From a virus, in IMG/VR virus record IMGVR_UViG_3300035659_000048, positions 1-40,493 of that record: a stretch of DNA of 40,493 nucleotides, one strand, 5' to 3'. Every line of letters starts with the position of its first letter. Within the stretch, counting starts at the first letter, position 1. The notes beneath the pieces are model-generated. The model was given only the letters and a program-made list of their open reading frames with translations. It was not told the origin of the DNA and searched no databases. The position numbers were made by a program, and so were the translations under genes. Shown one piece after another: positions 1 through 40,493 of the stretch.

Positions 1-83
1 CCGAGAGACTCCACAAGGACAACGAGACTATCCCATGCCTGAGACCGAGGATAATCTCCGTGGACAACAATGACATCATTCAT
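1..83 (-). CDS. Unknown protein, N-terminal fragment cut by the window edge
   Basis: An ATG at 83 opens a frame that runs off the left edge after 27 codons, starting MNDVIVVHGDY. A GGCGGC-like ribosome binding stretch lies about 5 bases upstream, and the frame continues the minus-strand early operon 62 bases after the previous stop. Too little is visible to assign a function. The hydrophobic beta-strand-like start (VIVVHG) would fit a small enzyme or nucleotide-binding fold, but this is only an impression. Confidence 0.45.
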   Translation of the reverse strand, partial: MNDVIVVHGDYPRSQAWDSLVVLVESL

Positions 84-145
84 TTGCGCCGCCTTTACAA
101 CATGGTTCCCGGCCTATTTCGCTCAACTACCTCAAAGACGCACTC

Positions 146-391
146 TCAAACCGTAGACGCTTTATGTTCGCGCACCATCTCATTGACTTTGCGCAACAAC
201 GACGATCGATCAACCTCAAGGTACATCACCTGCTGCTGCAATCGCTCCAACTCCCGCCGCGCCCACGATATCGCATCCGCCGCGCCGTGCTTCTTGCCTG
301 TATCGGATGTCAACTTGGCCGCGACGCCGAGCAGCCAGTGGACGTCTTCCAGGTACACGCGCGACGGGACGACTTTGCCTTCGCCCCTCAT
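146..391 (-). CDS. Unknown small helical protein (81 aa)
   Basis: The ORF starts in an ATGA overlap with the stop of the upstream 89-aa gene, so the two are probably translationally coupled. The product is charged and helical. Its C-terminal half (about residues 45-75, with RRELERLQQQ and heptad-spaced L/V) looks like a coiled coil, suggesting a dimer or a partner-binding role. No enzyme motif, membrane segment or zinc ligand set is present. It belongs to the early recombination unit that begins at the ATPase gene. Function unknown. Confidence 0.7.
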   Translation of the reverse strand: MRGEGKVVPSRVYLEDVHWLLGVAAKLTSDTGKKHGAADAISWARRELERLQQQVMYLEVDRSSLLRKVNEMVREHKASTV

Positions 392-11735: not shown

Positions 11736-12701
11736 CTATTTCTTCTGTACCATTCCACCAATCGGGAAGGTCATGGATTCGAGTCTGTGCCATTCGTCAA
11801 CTATCGCTTCGAGTCCGCAACGCACTTTTCCTTCGAGTTTCGCGGTGAGTCCCGGTGCCGCATTATCGCCCATATCCCGGTAGTATCGCTCCATGTGTCC
11901 CTCCGCCCAACCGTCCTGAGCGACACGGCCATGGATCGAATACACGCGGTCCCCGGCGTTCGTGAACCAGTAATCGTTCTCGACGACCATGAAGGTCTGC
12001 GGCGCAAGATTCGTCTGATGGACCTGGGTCATTGCTTCCATGGGGAAGATGATCATATCGCAGGCGCGAGCGAGCTTCTGAACCGCGATATTCCAGCAGA
12101 AAATATCACCGATTCCCTTGACGTTACCCTCTTTGTCAACCTGCTTTCCGTTGAAGCAAATCCGGTTGTAGTATTCGAATACGTATTTCCAGGAAGGCAT
12201 ATCGAAGATGATCGGCACTGAGCAGTGCATATTGTAAAGCTTGGTTGGCTCAGTGAAAAGTGGCTCGCCGTTGGCTGTGAAGTTCGGGCCGATCTGCCAC
12301 TTGAAGCGCTCGTTGCACCCTACCATAAAGCGCTTACCGCGTACCAACTCAAAGAGATCGAAGAATTGCGGGGATACGATGAACATGTCGGCATCGAGCA
12401 GGCACACCGAATCGTACTTCATGGCGTACTCGATGATGTAGGAGAAGCGGGCGCGCTTGATAAACTCAATGCGTTTCGTCTCAATAGGACACTCGATACT
12501 CGATCTGTCAACGCTGATAGGGATAACGTTGAACGAGAAGAGATGAGTGAAGTCGAAATACTTCACCGGGAATTCGTGGTGCAGGATGTAGACATCCAAA
12601 TCCTTCGGATTCTCGCACCGCTTCTCGATGCTGTTCAGAAGAACGTGGAGATATGGCAAGTAATTGTCTGTAGACGCAATGAAAATGGCCTTAGTCCCCA
12701 T
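11736..12701 (-). CDS. GT8-like glycosyltransferase (321 aa)
   Basis: A GT-A fold enzyme that should transfer a sugar from a nucleotide donor. The N-terminus TKAIFIASTDNYLPYLHVLL is the usual first strand and helix. The DxD motif D103-A-D105 is in SVCLLDADMFI, followed by conserved FMVGCNERFKW and a later GDIFCWNIAVQKL block, as in GT8/DUF-type transferases. No membrane anchor is present. It is separated from the next glycosyltransferase gene by 3 bases and lies immediately upstream of the tail fibre. Family placement between GT8 and other DxD transferases is tentative, but glycosyltransferase activity is likely. Confidence 0.75.
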   Translation of the reverse strand: MGTKAIFIASTDNYLPYLHVLLNSIEKRCENPKDLDVYILHHEFPVKYFDFTHLFSFNVIPISVDRSSIECPIETKRIEFIKRARFSYIIEYAMKYDSVCLLDADMFIVSPQFFDLFELVRGKRFMVGCNERFKWQIGPNFTANGEPLFTEPTKLYNMHCSVPIIFDMPSWKYVFEYYNRICFNGKQVDKEGNVKGIGDIFCWNIAVQKLARACDMIIFPMEAMTQVHQTNLAPQTFMVVENDYWFTNAGDRVYSIHGRVAQDGWAEGHMERYYRDMGDNAAPGLTAKLEGKVRCGLEAIVDEWHRLESMTFPIGGMVQKK

Positions 12702-29504: not shown

Positions 29505-30053
29505 CTATCCTTGGCCCGCGGAAGAACTCGAAGACGAGGAACTGGACGAGCTGCTGCTCGAAGACGAACTGCTGCTCGAGCTGCTGCTCGAACTCGATGA
29601 ACTTGACGATGAAGATGACGAGGACGATGAGGATGAAGATGAGGACGAGGACGACGAAGATGATGGAAGACTTTTCATCGTGCCCTGATTCAAATCGACC
29701 TCAACAAACCCGTCGGCAGCAACGGCCGGCTTCGAGCACATACCGACGCAGAAGTCCAAATGCGTCCCTGCCGTCGCGCTGGTATCCGCCTGATTGAGAC
29801 TCGCGTCCCAATAGACATCCGCACCGAGTGCAAATGCGACCGCCGCTTTCTTCACGTTCACACGGCCGTAGATGAGAACCGGCTTCGTTTCCCCGGAAGC
29901 ATTGGCAGCGAGAGACATCGCGGCGATGCGCTTTCCGCTGGTCATCGGAATGGCGATCATCTCTCCGACGGCGATGGTTGCCCCGGTGATGTTCGTGTAA
30001 TTGATCTGCGTTGCCGCATCGACAACTTGGATCTCGATTCCTTCGCGCGCCAT
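29505..30053 (-). CDS. DUF2190 capsid decoration (cement) protein 2 with 48-residue polyserine tail
   Basis: A DUF2190-type capsid cement protein: AREGIEIQVVDAATQINYTN, GATIAVGEMIAIPMTSGKR, VLIYGRVNVKKAA, GADVYWDASLNQAD and DGFVEVDLNQG. It is a clear paralogue of the adjacent 156-aa gene, with the same block order. Residues 131-178 are 48 consecutive serines, followed by AGQG. All six serine codons are used in mixed order (TCA, TCT, TCG, TCC, AGC, AGT), so the run is not a simple DNA repeat. The tail would project from the capsid surface. An intrinsic terminator separates it from the first copy and may lower its expression. AGGAG lies ahead of the start. Confidence 0.82.
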   Translation of the reverse strand: MAREGIEIQVVDAATQINYTNITGATIAVGEMIAIPMTSGKRIAAMSLAANASGETKPVLIYGRVNVKKAAVAFALGADVYWDASLNQADTSATAGTHLDFCVGMCSKPAVAADGFVEVDLNQGTMKSLPSSSSSSSSSSSSSSSSSSSSSSSSSSSSSSSSSSSSSSSSSSSSSSSSAGQG

Positions 30054-30122: not shown

Positions 30123-30593
30123 TCAGCTCGACGAACTGGAACTGCTGGACGAGCTGCTGCTCGACGAACTGCTTGAGCTGCTGCTCGAACTGGAAGACGA
30201 CGGCATGGAGGTCGTGGTGCCCTTGTTGAGATCCACCTCGACGAAGCCATCGGCCGCAGCGGCGGCCTTGGTGCACATACCGACGCAGAAGTCGCCATGC
30301 TGCGAAGCAATCGCCTTTGTGTCGGCCTGGTTCGCGCTGGCGTCCCAATAGACATCCGCGCCCTGCGCGAACGCGCGCGAGGTCGTCTTCTTGACGCTTA
30401 CGCGCCCGTAGATGAGCACCGCGCCGGTTGCCGCACCGGCGATGGTTGCGAGCACCATGCCCGCGATACGCTTGCCGGTGGTCGTGGCAATGCCGATGAT
30501 CTCGCCGACGGCCATAGCCGCGGCCGTGTTATTCGTGTAGTTGACCTGGACCGCTTCCTCAAGAACCTGAATTTCGATTCCTTCCCGAGCCAT
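30123..30593 (-). CDS. DUF2190 capsid decoration (cement) protein 1 with 25-residue polyserine tail
   Basis: The ATG at 30593 (AREGIEIQVLEEAVQVNYTN) has AGAGG 6 bases upstream; the longer frame upstream lies in a hairpin region. DUF2190 blocks are present: AMAVGEIIGIATTTGKR, VLIYGRVSVKKT, GADVYWDASANQAD, GDFCVGMCTK and DGFVEVDLNKG. Members of this family bind the outside of phage capsids as cement. Residues 132-156 are 25 serines up to the stop, encoded by a mixture of TCG, TCT, TCC, TCA, AGT and AGC. It directly follows the capsid gene. Older database names such as RecA/RadA recombinase for this family are misleading. Confidence 0.84.
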   Translation of the reverse strand: MAREGIEIQVLEEAVQVNYTNNTAAAMAVGEIIGIATTTGKRIAGMVLATIAGAATGAVLIYGRVSVKKTTSRAFAQGADVYWDASANQADTKAIASQHGDFCVGMCTKAAAAADGFVEVDLNKGTTTSMPSSSSSSSSSSSSSSSSSSSSSSSSS

Positions 30594-34919: not shown

Positions 34920-35228
34920 TCATATTGACATTATAGGATCGTCGTCACTCTTTTTCACTTTCTCGAACAGCACCATAACCCCTTCGATGGGTCCGAGATT
35001 GAACACCGCCCGGTATGCCCAGCCCTCGCGCCGCATATCGTTCAGTTGCTTGATGAAGGTGCGGTGCCAAGCGCCTTCCATGCGCAGGTCACGGTAATAT
35101 TCGACCGAGCCCGCGGGCCGGCCGCGCTTCGGCTTCGACGTGAGATCGATGAAAGCCTGTTTCGCCGCCTCTCGATCTCCAGGCGGAAGCATTCCGGTAG
35201 TTGGCCCAAGCGTCTTCTCGTTTTCCAT
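34920..35228 (-). CDS. Unknown protein after the large terminase (102 aa)
   Basis: The ATG at 35228 overlaps the terminase stop (TGATG) with GGAGG 6 bases before; an ATG two codons upstream lies on the SD. The product has a helix-rich N-terminus (ENEKTLGPTTGMLPPGDREA), a basic middle (KPKRGRPAGSVEYYRDLR) and a C-terminal strand pattern (AYRAVFNLGPIEGVMVLFEK). It could be a small head assembly or packaging helper. No family recognised. Confidence 0.65.
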   Translation of the reverse strand: MENEKTLGPTTGMLPPGDREAAKQAFIDLTSKPKRGRPAGSVEYYRDLRMEGAWHRTFIKQLNDMRREGWAYRAVFNLGPIEGVMVLFEKVKKSDDDPIMSI

Positions 35229-37195
35229 CACCATCCTCCTTGTTTGAGAAAGTCTCTCACGGTTCCGCCCATGTAGTTGCTCTGTATTTCCGGGGCTCCG
35301 CGCCCATGGTTTGCGTCCGCTGAATTCTCAACCGCCGGTTTCTGTTCCTGCGCATGATCGTATGCCGCGACAACCGTCTCGTCGAAAAGCTGCTCCTGAA
35401 GATTCAGAATCAGCGATGCCCCGACAATGTAATTCTCGCAGTCTCGGAAATGGTCCGGCTGCCCGGAGGTATCCCCACTGATCCAGCGCTTCCGCTTGTT
35501 CCCGCGGGGGTCCGTGTATTCCTCATCGTACTGGTTGAGCACCTGTTCGAGGTACGCCGGTTGAATGTCCTCCGGCAGATGCCAGAGGCTCGTCTCCATC
35601 TGCTTCTTGACGATGCGCGAAAGCTGTTCCGTGTTGCCGAAAAAGATCCCTGATTCTTTTCGATCGATGAGTTGGCCTTTGCTGGCGCTGCCGATGTATG
35701 CGCCGAAAAACCCGCTATGGGATACGATGTAATCAACGTCTTTCGAGCGATGTCCTCCGCGGTCGATGAGCCCGAAAAGCATCTGGACTTTGCGCCCAGA
35801 TTTCTTCTGGTAGGGCCAGCGATGGATTTCCTTGTTAAGCGTTGCCCATACCTCGGCCGGGTTTGCGTTCATGTCGATGTTCATGTCACACGCGACGAAC
35901 TCGCACCGGACAAGCCATGATTCCATTCCCTTGCCAAAGCCGCGGACGATGAAATAAAAACCGTCGTCTTGGGTGTCAACCCCGCAGAGAAGAAGCGTCA
36001 CCGCATCGGGCACATAGGCGTCGGGACCGTATTGCAGGTATTTCTGCGTCTTGCTCTTGAGCCACGATTCCTGCCCGCGCTGCGAGAAGACGCGGATCCA
36101 CCGCGCCATGTCCTCATTTTGGTAGGTCGCCAGGGCGTTCGGGTCCGGGGAATGCAGCGCCTCGAAGTATCGGGCCAGGCATTCGGCGGATGAGTATGAT
36201 GTGTCAACGAGGCGGTTCCAGTTGTAGACAACGCGGGTGGCGCGCGTCCGACCCCGGATGATTCCCTCGGAGTAGGATTCGCCTTTTGCCAACCAGGTAA
36301 CGCGATCGTTGATCGCCAGCCGTTCGGTCTCCGTGATGGTCGCTTTACATTTCGGACACTCAAAGCGCGCGGCCTTGTCCAAGCGAATCCGGTTTGCGTC
36401 GTGATCGTACTTTCCTTCCGCGTTCGGGAGTTCCTTGATTTGCGCGTCGGAATATTCGATCCATTCCAAGCAGTGTGGACATGGGTAATGCGGGGTGAGA
36501 AACAGGACCCCCGATCGGTGCGTCTCGGTGAATGATTTATCACCCTCCTCGATAGGACTTGTCTCGAAGACAGCCTTGACCTTGCGCCCGAGCATCCGGG
36601 ATGCCTGCTGCCGTCCGAAAAGCATCTTCACCGGATCAAAATTCTTGTTCTGCCATTTCGCCAATTCTGATCCGTAAATGAACCCGGCGTTGTAGGATGC
36701 CAGGTCGCTGCGCACGTTGGCGCTTGCGATACGGATGGTGATATGGGAGAGCTTCAGGCGACGCTTTGTGAGTTTTGAATCGTCGCCGTCCCAGAACTTC
36801 CGGATGCACGGAATGCCTTTGATAAGTGGCTTGATGCGTTCGTCGAACACATCGGCGATGGTCTCCTTCTTGGCATAGCAGAACATCATGTTGAGCGTCT
36901 CGAACGCCATGAACCACGCGGCTATCACCTCGGCAAGAAGGGATTTCCCGGTCTGGACGGGGCCGACGAGAAATACCTCGTCGTAGATGGCGATCGCGTC
37001 GAGCGGTTCCCGTTGCCAGGGGAACAACTTGAGGCGGCCCTGCACCGCATAGGCGCTTGACATCCGAAAGTCACGCTCCGCCCATTCGGATATCCGCGGG
37101 CGATCGGGAACCCTGAACGATTCCGAATGGTCCTTCGAGTAGACCGGGAATCCGGATTTCTCGAATTTCCAGCTACTCGGTTTTGATTGGCTCAC
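35228..37195 (-). CDS. Terminase large subunit, GpA family (655 aa)
   Basis: The DNA-packaging motor and cos nuclease. The start is GTG at 37195 with GGGAG upstream, overlapping the small terminase by 23 bases. Walker A is GPVQTGKS at residues 78-85, in the GpA-type arrangement PWQREPLDAI..VFLVGPVQTGKS. The Walker B area reads GFIYGSELAKW, with Ser where Asp is usual, but the following Glu is present. The nuclease domain (from about residue 398) has LLCGVDTQDDGFYF and GLIDRGGHRSKDVDYIV acidic residues. A zinc-like CPHCLEW..CPKCKAT pair is at about 235-290, common in this family. It ends with a basic, proline-rich tail that should bind the portal. Confidence 0.85.
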   Translation of the reverse strand: MSQSKPSSWKFEKSGFPVYSKDHSESFRVPDRPRISEWAERDFRMSSAYAVQGRLKLFPWQREPLDAIAIYDEVFLVGPVQTGKSLLAEVIAAWFMAFETLNMMFCYAKKETIADVFDERIKPLIKGIPCIRKFWDGDDSKLTKRRLKLSHITIRIASANVRSDLASYNAGFIYGSELAKWQNKNFDPVKMLFGRQQASRMLGRKVKAVFETSPIEEGDKSFTETHRSGVLFLTPHYPCPHCLEWIEYSDAQIKELPNAEGKYDHDANRIRLDKAARFECPKCKATITETERLAINDRVTWLAKGESYSEGIIRGRTRATRVVYNWNRLVDTSYSSAECLARYFEALHSPDPNALATYQNEDMARWIRVFSQRGQESWLKSKTQKYLQYGPDAYVPDAVTLLLCGVDTQDDGFYFIVRGFGKGMESWLVRCEFVACDMNIDMNANPAEVWATLNKEIHRWPYQKKSGRKVQMLFGLIDRGGHRSKDVDYIVSHSGFFGAYIGSASKGQLIDRKESGIFFGNTEQLSRIVKKQMETSLWHLPEDIQPAYLEQVLNQYDEEYTDPRGNKRKRWISGDTSGQPDHFRDCENYIVGASLILNLQEQLFDETVVAAYDHAQEQKPAVENSADANHGRGAPEIQSNYMGGTVRDFLKQGGW

Positions 37196-37751
37196 CTGTC
37201 TCTCCCGCGTCCAGTTCTGTGTGCGGCGTTATCGGGCGTGATCCTTCAACAAACGCTTCGAGCGCTTCCTTGACGAATCCGTCAACCACGTCCAAGACTC
37301 TGCCGGCGTTCTCCGGCGCCGAGCCCATGGCCGTCAGAAGCGCGTTGATGTTTCGCTTCCATGCGTCAGTCCAGAACGTGCGCAGCGCGATCGCCTGTTC
37401 TTTGGCAACCTGTTCCACGGTGTGCCGGTCGATCGTCTCGTCGCGCGCCTTCTGGATCCGCACTTCGAGCAGTGAATTCTGGTTCTTAAGTCGTTGCGTC
37501 TCCTCCGCATGTTTGGCGTCGGCCGCCTGGTCCTGATACAAGTCCTTGAGCCGGGCCCGGTGCCATGACCAGACCCCAGGGACCGAAAAATGAAACTGCC
37601 GTCGCCGTCCGCGGGGCGCCTGGTGTGGGCAACCCTCCTCCCGCCACTTGTCGATCGCCTGAGTAGTCACCCCGAGCAGCATTGAGAGCGATTTCGTCGG
37701 GCATGACTCCGGGTCGATCTTCTCGAGAATGGTTGCGTTTTTGCTACTCAT
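37173..37751 (-). CDS. Terminase small subunit, Nu1-like (192 aa)
   Basis: The DNA-recognition subunit of the packaging terminase. Residues 15-60 (CPTKSLSMLLGVTTQAIDKW, REEGCPHQAPRGRRRQFHFS) are a winged-helix DNA-binding domain like lambda Nu1. The next part is a coiled coil (about 75-125, AEETQRLKNQNSLLEVRIQK), and the C-terminus (FVKEALEAFVEGSRPITPH) would contact the large subunit. It overlaps the large-subunit gene by 23 bases. Repeated GGTAG pentamers lie just upstream, where Nu1-type proteins bind at cos. Confidence 0.82.
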   Translation of the reverse strand: MSSKNATILEKIDPESCPTKSLSMLLGVTTQAIDKWREEGCPHQAPRGRRRQFHFSVPGVWSWHRARLKDLYQDQAADAKHAEETQRLKNQNSLLEVRIQKARDETIDRHTVEQVAKEQAIALRTFWTDAWKRNINALLTAMGSAPENAGRVLDVVDGFVKEALEAFVEGSRPITPHTELDAGETGEPIKTE

Positions 37752-37764
37752 GGGTGCGTTATCG

Positions 37765-37856
37765 CTACCTTTTTCCTACCTGGTTCGTAATTTCTCATTT
37801 TTGCGAAAATCTACCGAGCTTCGGCTACCTCTTTACATTCCTGCCCCGGTAGTACC
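37765..37856 (-). repeat. Clustered GGTAG repeats, candidate terminase binding (cos/R-site) region
   Basis: Minus-strand GGTAG occurs at 37769-37765, 37780-37776, 37815-37811 and 37829-37825, and a GGTACTACC palindrome lies at 37856-37848. All are within 92 bases ahead of the small terminase gene. They are separated by A/T-rich stretches such as 37789-37812. In lambda, the Nu1 R sites and IHF site at cosB have the same place and layout. The repeats may therefore be small terminase binding sites; no cohesive-end nick site could be read. Confidence 0.45.
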
Positions 37857-38035: not shown

Positions 38036-38479
38036 TCAAACGCCAAGGGATCGCGCTATCTTTTGCACCATGCACTCGTACTCATCGGGTGATATGGACA
38101 GCCTGCGCAGGCGCTGCTTCTCGACCTCGTATGAGCGCCATACGTCGTGATCGACCCGGGTGTGCGTCCGTGCATGCCTTATGCCCTGCCTGCTTTTCTT
38201 GCCCGTCCCGTTGAGTGCGCCCAGATACATGATCGCCCCTTTTGAGTCCTTGACATTTGTAATGTGTTGCACGGCCCGCTTCGGGCGAACTGTAGGCCGC
38301 GACTCCGCACGTTTGGAGGCGGACCGTACCTGTAACTCACACATATACCAATGGTATTGCGATTGTTCGCTTGACAATGCATCTTTACGGGTGATAGCCG
38401 CGCGCTTATCGTCCCAAAGTTCGTGGAGAATACCGTCGTCCTTTGCGAACAATCGCCTATAAATTCCAAACACGTTCAT
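38036..38479 (-). CDS. Unknown basic protein next to the cassette array (147 aa)
   Basis: The ATG at 38479 has a perfect AAGGAGG upstream. It lies directly after an attC site, so it may be the last cassette gene, but no attC can be found downstream of it. The product is basic and helical, with a central segment QHITNVKDSKGAIMYLGAL, a K/R-rich part (NGTGKKSRQGIRHARTHTRV) and a C-terminal helix (YEVEKQRLRRLSISPDEYEC). It might bind nucleic acid. No family recognised. GC content is lower than in the head genes. Confidence 0.62.
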   Translation of the reverse strand: MNVFGIYRRLFAKDDGILHELWDDKRAAITRKDALSSEQSQYHWYMCELQVRSASKRAESRPTVRPKRAVQHITNVKDSKGAIMYLGALNGTGKKSRQGIRHARTHTRVDHDVWRSYEVEKQRLRRLSISPDEYECMVQKIARSLGV

Positions 38480-38517
38480 TGTCCGCCTCCTTTACAATCG
38501 CGCTCTCGCGGCCTATT

Positions 38518-38605
38518 GCGTGCAACGTTCTGGCCAACGCACGAAGCGCGGCCTACAAACCCTTACCCCTTGTCAGCCGAGTTTTGTGCTTGGCCTGTTA
38601 TACGC
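38518..38605 (-). repeat. attC-type recombination site 1 (88 bp)
   Basis: The minus strand has R'' GCGTATAAC (38605-38597) and R' GTTGCACGC (38526-38518). Inside are matched arms GGCCAA/TTGGCC (38532-38537 with 38590-38595) and GCAC/GTGC (38539-38542 with 38586-38589), with one unpaired base (38538), the usual extrahelical-base form of attC hairpins. The conserved AAC and GTT triplets are in place. It overlaps the 3' end of the 85-aa gene. R'' is an exact 9-of-9 complement of the sequence that begins that cassette at its other end. Confidence 0.82.
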
Positions 38606-38820
38606 TGTTCGTCAACCGCTCCATGATTTTCAGCGGCGCGGCCCCGAAGTGCGTTGACAAGAAAATCTGCCAATTCAAACTGCTCGAATATTTCATCACG
38701 ATACCGGCGTTCTTGGCCGGGATACTTCGTAACTTGTGGAAAGAAAAATAGAAATCCGGTTGAATCACGGACGCCATGTGGTTTGTAATGCTGGTGGATA
38801 ACCTCTAATCTCTCGTGCAT
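38563..38820 (-). CDS. Unknown cassette-encoded protein (85 aa)
   Basis: The ATG at 38820 has AGGAGG 9 bases upstream. The gene lies between two attC sites, so it is a complete cassette gene (cassette 38863-38526, 338 bp). The product is small, with a helix MHERLEVIHQHYKPHGVRD, a hydrophobic and aromatic stretch FLFFFPQVTKYPGQERRYRD and a helix FEQFELADFLVNALRG. The last 14 residues are encoded inside attC1. Many integron cassette genes are small and uncharacterised, and a toxin, antitoxin or defence role is possible, but nothing here shows it. Confidence 0.62.
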   Translation of the reverse strand: MHERLEVIHQHYKPHGVRDSTGFLFFFPQVTKYPGQERRYRDEIFEQFELADFLVNALRGRAAENHGAVDEQRITGQAQNSADKG

Positions 38821-38855
38821 TAGCGCCGCCTCCTAATATGGTCGGTTGACGAATT

Positions 38856-38947
38856 GCGTATAACGTTTGCGGTACTGTTTGCTGTAACCGCCTATGAGAT
38901 TTTTACTACGTGTCAAGCGGTTATTGCAAACTACCGCTGTTGCATGC
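38856..38947 (-). repeat. attC-type recombination site 2 (92 bp)
   Basis: Minus strand R'' GCATGCAAC (38947-38939) and R' GTTATACGC (38864-38856). The arms are GCGGTA/TACCGC (38869-38874 with 38932-38937), GTTTGC/GCAAAC (38877-38882 with 38926-38931) and TAACCGC/GCGGTTA (38885-38891 with 38917-38923), all perfect, separated by short unpaired bases as in folded attC sites. A central loop of 25 bases remains. It overlaps the last 17 bases of the methyltransferase gene. Confidence 0.84.
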
Positions 38948-40295
38948 TGTGCTGGCCTGTTCCGCTTTCTCCTGCGGCGGCTCTTCCGGCACCGAGTGTG
39001 CCGGTTGCCTGGATTCTTTCGCCTATCCACCGGACAACGGGAACAGCCATCGAATTACCCAGCGCTTTGTATCGTGGCCCATCTGCTGCCGGTTTGCCGC
39101 GATGATTTACCAGCGTATAATCATCGGGGAACCCCTGCAACCGTTCGCATTCTCTCGGCGTGAGTCGGCGAACTTGCATTCCGCTCTGAATGCTGTGTAA
39201 ATCCCTGGACGTGCACGAGTACATTACATCACTTTCTGAAATGCCGATTCCGTTTTGCTTCCTCTGCCTTGGACAATTGACCGACTGCAAAGAAACCACC
39301 GGAGCCCGATTGCTTCCAGAATCAGAACTCGGCAAGGTGGGCGCTATTTCAATTCCGATACCAAGCCCTCTTGATTTTGCGCCTTGACCGCCCTTGAAAC
39401 AGATTGCTGGATATCCGCTTCCCGGCTTGCCACCACCAGATGATAACGCGGGGCTTTCGAGCATTTCCCGTATTTCCCCGCGCTGATTCTCTGCAAACGC
39501 AATAGGTGCCTCATGGTTGCATGTCAGGGACGGCGAGCCGTCCCTGACTATCTCAGCGTTGCCTTGGCCGTGCGCCATGACAAGCGGAGTACCACGCCCG
39601 GTGCCGTCTTCCGATGCGTCGAACCCTTCGGCGCGTAATGAGTGGGCAATCAAGCCGCCATCTAAATCGAAGTCGGTTCCGAGTCCACCACCGCCCTTAG
39701 TGCGCGCGCTAATTGTTCCGGCAGGCTTTTGCCCCTTTTTTCTGCTCGGCGGAGTATGCCCTTGCAAGCTGTGGCGCTCAAAAAGTACCGCTGCGGCACT
39801 TTGCCAACTTCCAAAACATCCGACAACGAAGACGCGACGGCGGCGCTGGGGAACTCCAAAGTATTGAGCGTCCAAAATTCTGTAAGCGAACCCATACCCG
39901 AGTTGCCCCAGCCCTCCAAGGAAGGCTCCAAACGCTCCGGTTTTATCCGACAGGACTCCGGGCACGTTCTCCCATACCACCCACTTGGGGCTATAGCGCC
40001 GAACGATGCCAAGGAAAACGAGGGTAAGGTTGCCACGAGGGTCATCCAATCCCTTTCGCAATCCGGCGACACTGAAAGCCTGGCAAGGTGTTCCTGCGCA
40101 AATAAGTTCAACTGTTGCATCGGGCCACTCCTTAAACTTTTTCATGTCGCCGTAATTTGGAACCTCTGGGCGATGAACATTCAGAACGGCGCACGGAAAA
40201 GGTTCTATCTCGGAACAAAAAACAGGAGTCCAGTACATTGGCGCCCATGCCACCTCTGGTGCTCCGATTCCGCTGCATACTGTTGCAAATCTCAT
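38931..40295 (-). CDS. C5-cytosine DNA methyltransferase (454 aa)
   Basis: All key motifs of 5-methylcytosine DNA methyltransferases are present: motif I FATVCSGIGAPEVAW (3-17), motif IV with catalytic Cys71 in AGTPCQAFSVAG, motif VI ENV (109-111), motif VIII PQRRRR (149-154), a target-recognition region (about 155-385) with glycine-rich segments, and motifs IX and X (RRLTPRECERLQGFPD, RYKALGNSMAVPV). No restriction partner is adjacent, so it is likely a solitary enzyme that protects phage DNA. The sequence is of phage type (AHGQGNAEIVRDGSPSLTCN as I recall it), yet its 3' end lies in attC2, so it sits inside a cassette. Upstream of the ATG is a CATGCC-TACT-GGCATG hairpin (40307-40322). Confidence 0.9.
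   Translation of the reverse strand: MRFATVCSGIGAPEVAWAPMYWTPVFCSEIEPFPCAVLNVHRPEVPNYGDMKKFKEWPDATVELICAGTPCQAFSVAGLRKGLDDPRGNLTLVFLGIVRRYSPKWVVWENVPGVLSDKTGAFGAFLGGLGQLGYGFAYRILDAQYFGVPQRRRRVFVVGCFGSWQSAAAVLFERHSLQGHTPPSRKKGQKPAGTISARTKGGGGLGTDFDLDGGLIAHSLRAEGFDASEDGTGRGTPLVMAHGQGNAEIVRDGSPSLTCNHEAPIAFAENQRGEIREMLESPALSSGGGKPGSGYPAICFKGGQGAKSRGLGIGIEIAPTLPSSDSGSNRAPVVSLQSVNCPRQRKQNGIGISESDVMYSCTSRDLHSIQSGMQVRRLTPRECERLQGFPDDYTLVNHRGKPAADGPRYKALGNSMAVPVVRWIGERIQATGTLGAGRAAAGESGTGQHSMQQR
39662..40120 (-). CDS. Overprinted ORF nested in the methyltransferase gene (152 aa)
   Basis: The same strand carries a second frame of 152 codons wholly inside the methyltransferase gene. Its ATG has AAGGAG at 8 bases, better than the methyltransferase start. 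The product (MQQLNLFAQEHLARLSVSPD, GWYGRTCPESC, MGSLTEFWTLNTLEFPS, VASSLSDVLEVGKVPQRYFL, CKGILRRAEKRGKSLP) resembles hypothetical phage proteins I recall as separate entries. If those come from the same overlapping arrangement, both frames are conserved. The function is unknown; an anti-restriction or methylation-related role is a guess from position. It could also be a by-product of conserved methyltransferase motifs. Confidence 0.5.
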   Translation of the reverse strand: MQQLNLFAQEHLARLSVSPDCERDWMTLVATLPSFSLASFGAIAPSGWYGRTCPESCRIKPERLEPSLEGWGNSGMGSLTEFWTLNTLEFPSAAVASSLSDVLEVGKVPQRYFLSATACKGILRRAEKRGKSLPEQLARALRAVVDSEPTSI

Positions 40296-40363
40296 TTTTG
40301 TCTTCCCATGCCTACTGGCATGAATCTTAGCCGCCGCCTCAGTATTTCAAGCAGGCCAGCATT

Positions 40364-40493
40364 GCATACAACGTTCACCGCACGCCCGATAGTTTGCCCC
40401 GTTCGAGCACGCACGGCTTACCGTAGCACAACATGGTTGTTTCTTGGATAACACACCCCGCACCATCGATAAAGCAGGGGCAAATTTTGGGCT
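40364..40493 (-). repeat. attC-type site 3, cut by the window edge
   Basis: The R' end GTTGTATGC (40372-40364) is followed outward by GAACGGGGCAAA-type arms: TTTGCCCC (40393-40400) pairs with GGGGCAAA (40477-40484), and GCCC (40384-40387) with GGGC (40489-40492). The pairing continues to the last base of the window, so R'' lies beyond it. This implies another cassette upstream. Between the arms are about 75 bases without a recognised gene. Confidence 0.7.

Follow-up and report, generated by a model that had tools for sequence, protein, structure and literature searches.

Does a virus whose genome holds integron-type gene cassettes beside its packaging genes carry and exchange these cassettes as a phage, or does a prophage end lie next to a chromosomal cassette array? 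The question is raised by the window, the whole stretch of DNA analysed here, which makes up an entire IMG/VR virus record (40,493 bases) with no contig beyond its ends. A first-pass annotation, made from the sequence alone, had recognised three attC sites at its right end.

The genes of the window lie mainly on the minus strand. Genes for the terminase small subunit (TerS, 37173–37751, minus strand; phrog_57, 6.3e-11), the terminase large subunit of the GpA type (TerL, 35228–37195, minus strand; PF20454/PF05876), a portal protein and a capsid protease are clear, and a DnaB helicase, a RecE/YqaJ exonuclease and an SbcC-like protein represent the opposite side of the phage map. Three contigs of different haplotypes (L003, L004 and L005) have as their first base exactly window position 37828, just upstream of TerS; this common start looks like a virion DNA end (cos), a possible inference. 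Two stretches of the head decoration gene region (29542–30053 and 30145–30593) are about 72% alike and form a tandem gene duplication, and a glycosyltransferase family 8 gene lies outside the array at 11736–12701.

attC Sites of the Window

No Rfam family reaches the gathering threshold in the window; thus, a covariance model (R2) was built from attC-like sites of other viral contigs, with the window lineage left out. An earlier model (R1) had no loop and, since long loops were penalised, did not find the window sites; R2, built on the R1 matches in other phages, found them. A stem score used alone separated attC sites poorly from shuffled sequences; thus, reliance is placed on the covariance model and on the comparison of junctions. 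R2 is a narrow model that misses the attCs of the phages TJE1 and P12002L and of a Vibrio phage integron. Some of its training rows were chosen with the leader motif described below.

In an unfiltered search of the 40.5 kb window, the two best R2 matches are 38519–38604 (minus strand; 45.5 bits, E 2.1e-11), the attC of a cassette with an 85-aa ORF, and 38857–38946 (minus strand; 29.9 bits, E 8.2e-7), the attC of a C5-cytosine methyltransferase cassette; the next match has an E of 0.045. Folded as DNA on the plus strand, which is the attC bottom strand, the two sites reach z = -3.5 and -3.9, respectively, against dinucleotide shuffles. At the third site (about 40370–40493, minus strand), the contig breaks off inside the attC of a 346-bp cassette that contains a 99-aa ORF, and only the 3' part of this attC is left. 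R2 gives this fragment only E = 1; the complete 143-nt attC is present in the related contigs L006 and L007 (E 2.9e-11 in L007), where the complete cassette matches the fragment at 100% identity over 124–125 bp. Thus, the first-pass sites at 38518–38605 and 38856–38947 withstand the check with our own covariance model, whereas the third exceeds 88–92 bp when complete and is truncated in the window.

The attC layout R''(..AAC)–L''–variable loop–L'–R'(GTT..), in which the arms pair imperfectly, is met by the R2 matches and by covariation. In the R2 alignment, 10/10 pairs of the L helix are changed on both sides, and 70% of the cells are paired compared to 28–37% when the partner is slid by 1–3 bases. 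R2 finds 22 sites in L006 and L007, all within the array, and the other matches in these contigs are weak (E 0.09–0.61) and confined to the backbone; strong matches in the window lineage all fall on array positions. R2 has no match in the 604 kb that surround 79 homologous C5 methyltransferases in other phages, or beside terminase relatives at 44–53% identity, most of which have little array-side sequence. On this sequence evidence, the attC sites of the window are real.

Cassettes and Their Products

The cassettes of the window are a 338-bp unit (38526–38863, minus strand) with the 85-aa ORF (38563–38820), a 1508-bp unit (38864–40371, minus strand) and, at the opposite end of the record, the 5' part of the first cassette of the array (1–126, minus strand), which consists of R' GTTGAGCG, a leader and an ORF start at 83 and is cut by the contig end. 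The 1508-bp cassette carries a C5-cytosine DNA methyltransferase gene of 454 aa (38931–40295, minus strand; PF00145, 3.5e-51; phrog_116, 6.7e-83), which bears out the early assignment of a phage-type methyltransferase to one cassette; L006 and L007 have the same 1508-bp cassette, where it follows different neighbours. Within this gene, 39523–39548 is a near-perfect 26-bp inverted repeat.

Across the lineage, the cassette products include C5, N6_N4 (two), MT-A70 and Dam methyltransferases and small proteins without a family. Catalytic motifs are recognised by direct reading, with PCQ and ENV in the C5 enzyme and DPPY, DPPW and NPPF in the other methyltransferases. N6_N4 or C5 methyltransferase cassettes are also carried by other array phages (G009, G011 and G016). 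Two methyltransferase cassettes of L006 (244–1035 and 4984–5868) share their first ~46 bases, the 3' coding end and the attC start around different gene bodies, as if genes had been swapped within a cassette frame.

The internal logic of the cassettes extends beyond the window. Among 17 unique cassettes of the L006 and L007 arrays, 66/85 outer positions are Watson-Crick pairs when the R' that opens a cassette is set against the R'' of that cassette's own attC. By contrast, the adjacent arms of a site pair at 38/85, which is the level of shuffles (37.9 +/- 4.2), and none of 20,000 shuffles reaches 66. The complementarity within cassettes and the poor match of adjacent arms, first read from the window, are thus confirmed as a general rule: the R' opening each cassette pairs with its own R'', and the rest of the attC closes the cassette. 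Such pairing results from excision and re-insertion at G|TT.

Location of the Array in the Phage Genome

The contig L007 (IMGVR 3300031707_000086) is near-identical to the window and joins its left end to its right end. In this single contig, an SbcC-like gene and an 81-aa gene are followed by eight cassettes, a 147-aa ORF, TerS and TerL. The first 127 bases of the window are the other end of the same array, with the 81-aa gene, a GTAG|TTG junction and the start of the first cassette; this end escaped the first-pass annotation. In L006, the array is found at both contig ends. Phage genes flank the array on both sides in the window, L006 and L007, and no host chromosomal genes adjoin it in these three records.

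The two borders are constant. The 81-aa phage gene (146–391, minus strand) is the conserved left flank at the 5' side of the array, and it has the same position in L006, L007 and G016 (locus L046). On the other side, a terminal R' GTTGCACGC, a cassette-type leader and the 147-aa ORF (38036–38525, minus strand) are common to the window, L006 and L007; no attC stands behind this unit, which, by comparison of the three sequences, is the fixed right border of the array. Since L007 crosses the array and the window holds its other end, the array lies within the phage map and not at a prophage boundary. Its locus is fixed, with the 81-aa phage gene on one side and the terminase genes on the other.

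Probable Entry Junction

The boundary between the left flank and the first cassette (127–156, minus strand) has the form CTACRGTTTGA-N15-GTAG|TTG, with the same length and motif in the window and L007, in L006 and in G016. The last is a different phage, with a TerL only 40% identical to that of the window. The cassette behind GTAG|TTG is a different one in all four phages of these two phage groups, and the pattern is the same even though the reading frame of the left-flank gene passes differently through the junction. The junction looks like an attI, an inference that rests on only three distinct sequences and is functionally untested.

The left-flank gene of G016 (L046, 5517–5753) has about 81–84% protein identity to that of the window (146–391), in contrast to the 40% of TerL, which suggests that the array locus moved as a module. 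A search for further relatives of this gene returned already known contigs only.

Turnover between Near-Identical Phages

The first-pass annotation had proposed a look for related contigs with a different cassette number, and both L006 and L007 are of this kind. The backbones of the window and L007 are 99.7–99.9% identical over about 29.8 kb. Between the 99-aa and C5 methyltransferase cassettes, L007 carries another five, and the first cassettes of the two phages differ. The L006 backbone is 96.7–99% identical to that of the window over most of the aligned length and lower beside the array; L006 has four extra cassettes at the attC of the 85-aa cassette (38519–38604), two different ones before the C5 methyltransferase cassette and a changed order of two shared cassettes. 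The three records differ by whole cassettes, never halves, and switch between cassettes exactly at G|TT, with left sides that share ACG or less. False assembly joins would need far longer shared sequence. Thus, the proposal that phages carry and exchange integron-type cassettes is supported by the L007 contig and by content that differs exactly at G|TT.

Near-identical phages appear to gain, lose and reorder cassettes by site-specific recombination at G|TT, a conclusion from comparative evidence only, as no recombination was observed directly. Two differences are not explained by a simple exchange at G|TT. The attC of the 85-aa cassette has AGAAC in the window and L007 versus ATTCC in L006 just left of G|TT. 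In addition, the same cassette starts with GTTGCAATTTG in L006 (1035) and with GTTGGTTGCAATTTG in L007 (L017 14536, same contig) and L046 (5206), a difference of 4 nt (GGTT) in R', exactly at the recombination site.

Distribution in Other Phages and in Bacterial Genomes

Many cassettes have a TTATAG-like leader box about 28 nt after R'. A leader pattern of CGTTGYRCGMAAT followed by TTATAGG is matched by 14 viral stretches, and the sequences upstream look like attCs by eye. A TTATA/TTGTA box is present 18–34 nt behind GTT at 39/66 junctions versus 6.3% of control CGTTR sites; the former figure is somewhat inflated by the R2 training rows picked with the motif, among which the window lineage is not included. 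With R2, 61 matches at E 0.5 or better, clustered in each record, are detected in twelve further records, and five more in L022. About eleven other viral contigs have arrays of the same attC type, often with the shared leader.

The array adjoins TerL also in G015 and in G016/G017, the latter two being the same phage over 5 kb. A cassette of L006 and L007 recurs in G016 at 93–95% identity, and pieces of attC or leader recur across other phages. The 213-kb virus record G006 (L073 3800–12800; L074 3200–4000) has about 30 attC sites in two clusters, and most of its tested cassette products are without a family.

A slightly stricter leader pattern searched in 84,980 genomes gave seven matches. Six of these, in Prevotella/Prevotellaceae, Burkholderiales and Lachnospiraceae, are without an attC and were set aside; the convincing one is in an Ignavibacteriae MAG (G019; L061 1–200, L116, L117), with one chromosomal cassette that has a phage-type leader and attC, and with integron-integrase-like ORFs. 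The lineage of this MAG is a possible donor or host. In its class, 61 genomes had no more R2 sites, and 197 had one further leader-pattern match. The genome searches with the leader and R2 found no host of the window lineage. Because R2 fails on the published phage clusters and on the Vibrio phage integron alike, its silence in genomes is no proof that bacteria lack related sites.

Recombinase Source and Alternative Explanations

The integron integrase sought after the first-pass annotation was not found in the lineage records searched: neither PF00589 nor TIGR02249 (tyrosine recombinase and integron integrase) is detected in the six records comprising the window and L003–L007. This search does not cover the middle of the window array, which is not in the record; the array of L007 is complete and holds none. 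No tyrosine recombinase exceeds the cut-off in twelve other array records, and no serine recombinase (PF00239) is found in seven records. G018 has clear tyrosine recombinase matches, and no array was found there. The window meets the criterion of a CALIN (at least two attCs close together without intI), its two complete attCs being about 250 nt apart; by R2, L007 has 8 attCs and L006 has 13 or more, with no TIGR02249. The intI of a complete integron is not found in the window or L003–L007.

Taken together, the window is best read, at a probability of roughly 0.8, as a tailed phage with an integron-type cassette array that lacks its own integrase, occupies a fixed locus, turns over at G|TT and uses an integrase supplied in trans. 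The attC structure, the R'/R'' logic, the position inside the phage, the turnover with exact junctions and the sharing of cassettes with other phages are the observed parts of this reading. Cassettes would be gained, lost and reordered through site-specific recombination at G|TT, with new ones probably entering at the attI-like junction beside the 81-aa gene. The integrase is inferred to come from the host, or from another element in the cell, and to act in trans on single-stranded phage DNA. A host integron is the likeliest source, by analogy to the action of IntI1 on attCs of virulent phages (PMC9892861), though no integrase or host is identified. The array may serve as an exchangeable accessory region, in which methyltransferases would shield phage DNA from restriction systems that differ among hosts, and a promoter inferred in the leader of many cassettes would make a common upstream promoter unneeded.

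A more speculative reading, considered unlikely at present, is that of a viral integron: phages would own a cassette pool that has an attC class and a leader to itself, unrelated phages would exchange these cassettes at a phage attI dedicated to them, and an unrecognised recombinase of phages or co-resident elements would move them.

Less probable again is an integron-derived array whose cassettes now move by phage homologous recombination (YqaJ/RecE-type exonuclease) or by gene conversion through the repeated attC and leader homology. The phage does encode a YqaJ/RecE-like exonuclease, two methyltransferase cassettes of L006 do enclose different gene bodies between common 5' leaders and 3' ends, and several phages have attC segments in common, a pattern expected of homologous exchange. 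Such recombination does not account for switches that break exactly at G|TT and whose left sides share about ACG at most, for differences among the window, L006 and L007 that consist only of whole cassettes, or for the pairing of R' with its own R'', which is the signature of excision and integration.

A phage-encoded recombinase beyond PF00589 and PF00239, as part of an integron-like system of the phages' own, is doubtful to a somewhat greater degree. It would fit the absence of tyrosine recombinases from the lineage and, above the cut-off, from the 12 further array records, the leader in 14 viral stretches versus a single convincing match in 84,980 genomes, and the many phage genes without a family match. 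By contrast, the attC structure, the cut at G|TT and the cassette logic are those of IntI, and IntI1 acts on phage attCs (PMC9892861). A gene shared by every array phage was neither sought nor found.

The prophage end beside a chromosomal array, which the first-pass annotation left as its alternative, and likewise a chimeric assembly, can be rejected with little reserve: the window does end inside an attC, as often happens in fragmented assemblies, but L007 spans the array from end to end and has phage genes on either side of it, the left end of the window has the same array behind a phage gene, the junctions share about 5 nt, which is too short for false contig joins, and all three agreeing records would have to be chimeric alike. 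Terminators or other intergenic phage hairpins that resemble attCs by chance do sit between genes and fold well, yet this reading is contradicted by the R'/R'' rule, the covariation, the exact cassette switches and the restriction of strong matches to arrays, and retains almost no credit.

Comparison with Known Systems

The array in the phage, with its integrase inferred in trans, shares with class 1 and chromosomal integrons the attC architecture, the exchange at G|TT, the single orientation of cassettes, the R'/R'' logic and the fixed entry side. Integrons have intI and attI; by contrast, the phage array is without intI, its entry is only attI-like, and many of its cassettes share the TTATAG-like leader box. 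A cassette array is also present on the record of Vibrio anguillarum phages (MK672802); unlike that of the window, it is a captured segment of the host's chromosomal integron that includes intI and adjoining host genes, and R2 has no match there. The cassette methyltransferases are of the same phage-type families as orphan anti-restriction methyltransferases of phages, which, in 79 other viral loci, have no attC of the window class.

The closest relatives are the integrase-free attC clusters (CALINs) of the virulent phages TJE1, P12002L, PH101 and MW202573 (Qi et al. 2023, PMC9892861), some of which carry DNA methyltransferase cassettes; of six phage attCs tested in E. coli, IntI1 recombined five with attI1. 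Phage cassette clusters with methyltransferases are thus already known in kind from this source. R2 has no match on TJE1, P12002L or MW202573. The published clusters are described there from single genomes, and the accessible text reports no within-lineage turnover, conserved entry junction, cassette sharing between phages, arrays of >20 sites or conserved leader. The literature searched, in which subscription papers and preprints are incompletely covered, likewise gives no account of near-identical phages that differ by cassette turnover, of a conserved entry junction, of phages with cassettes in common or of arrays this long. Without being proof of absence elsewhere, this leaves within-lineage turnover, the fixed junction at the entry side and the sharing of cassettes between phages as the new elements. 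In this lineage, cassette gain, loss and reordering are natural, and the closest members differ by <0.3% in the backbone. Phages appear to use the integron mechanism for fast gene swapping, apparently of anti-restriction genes, and the origin of the integrase, a possible transport of cassettes between bacteria by phages and the possible existence of a virus-specific cassette pool are now testable.
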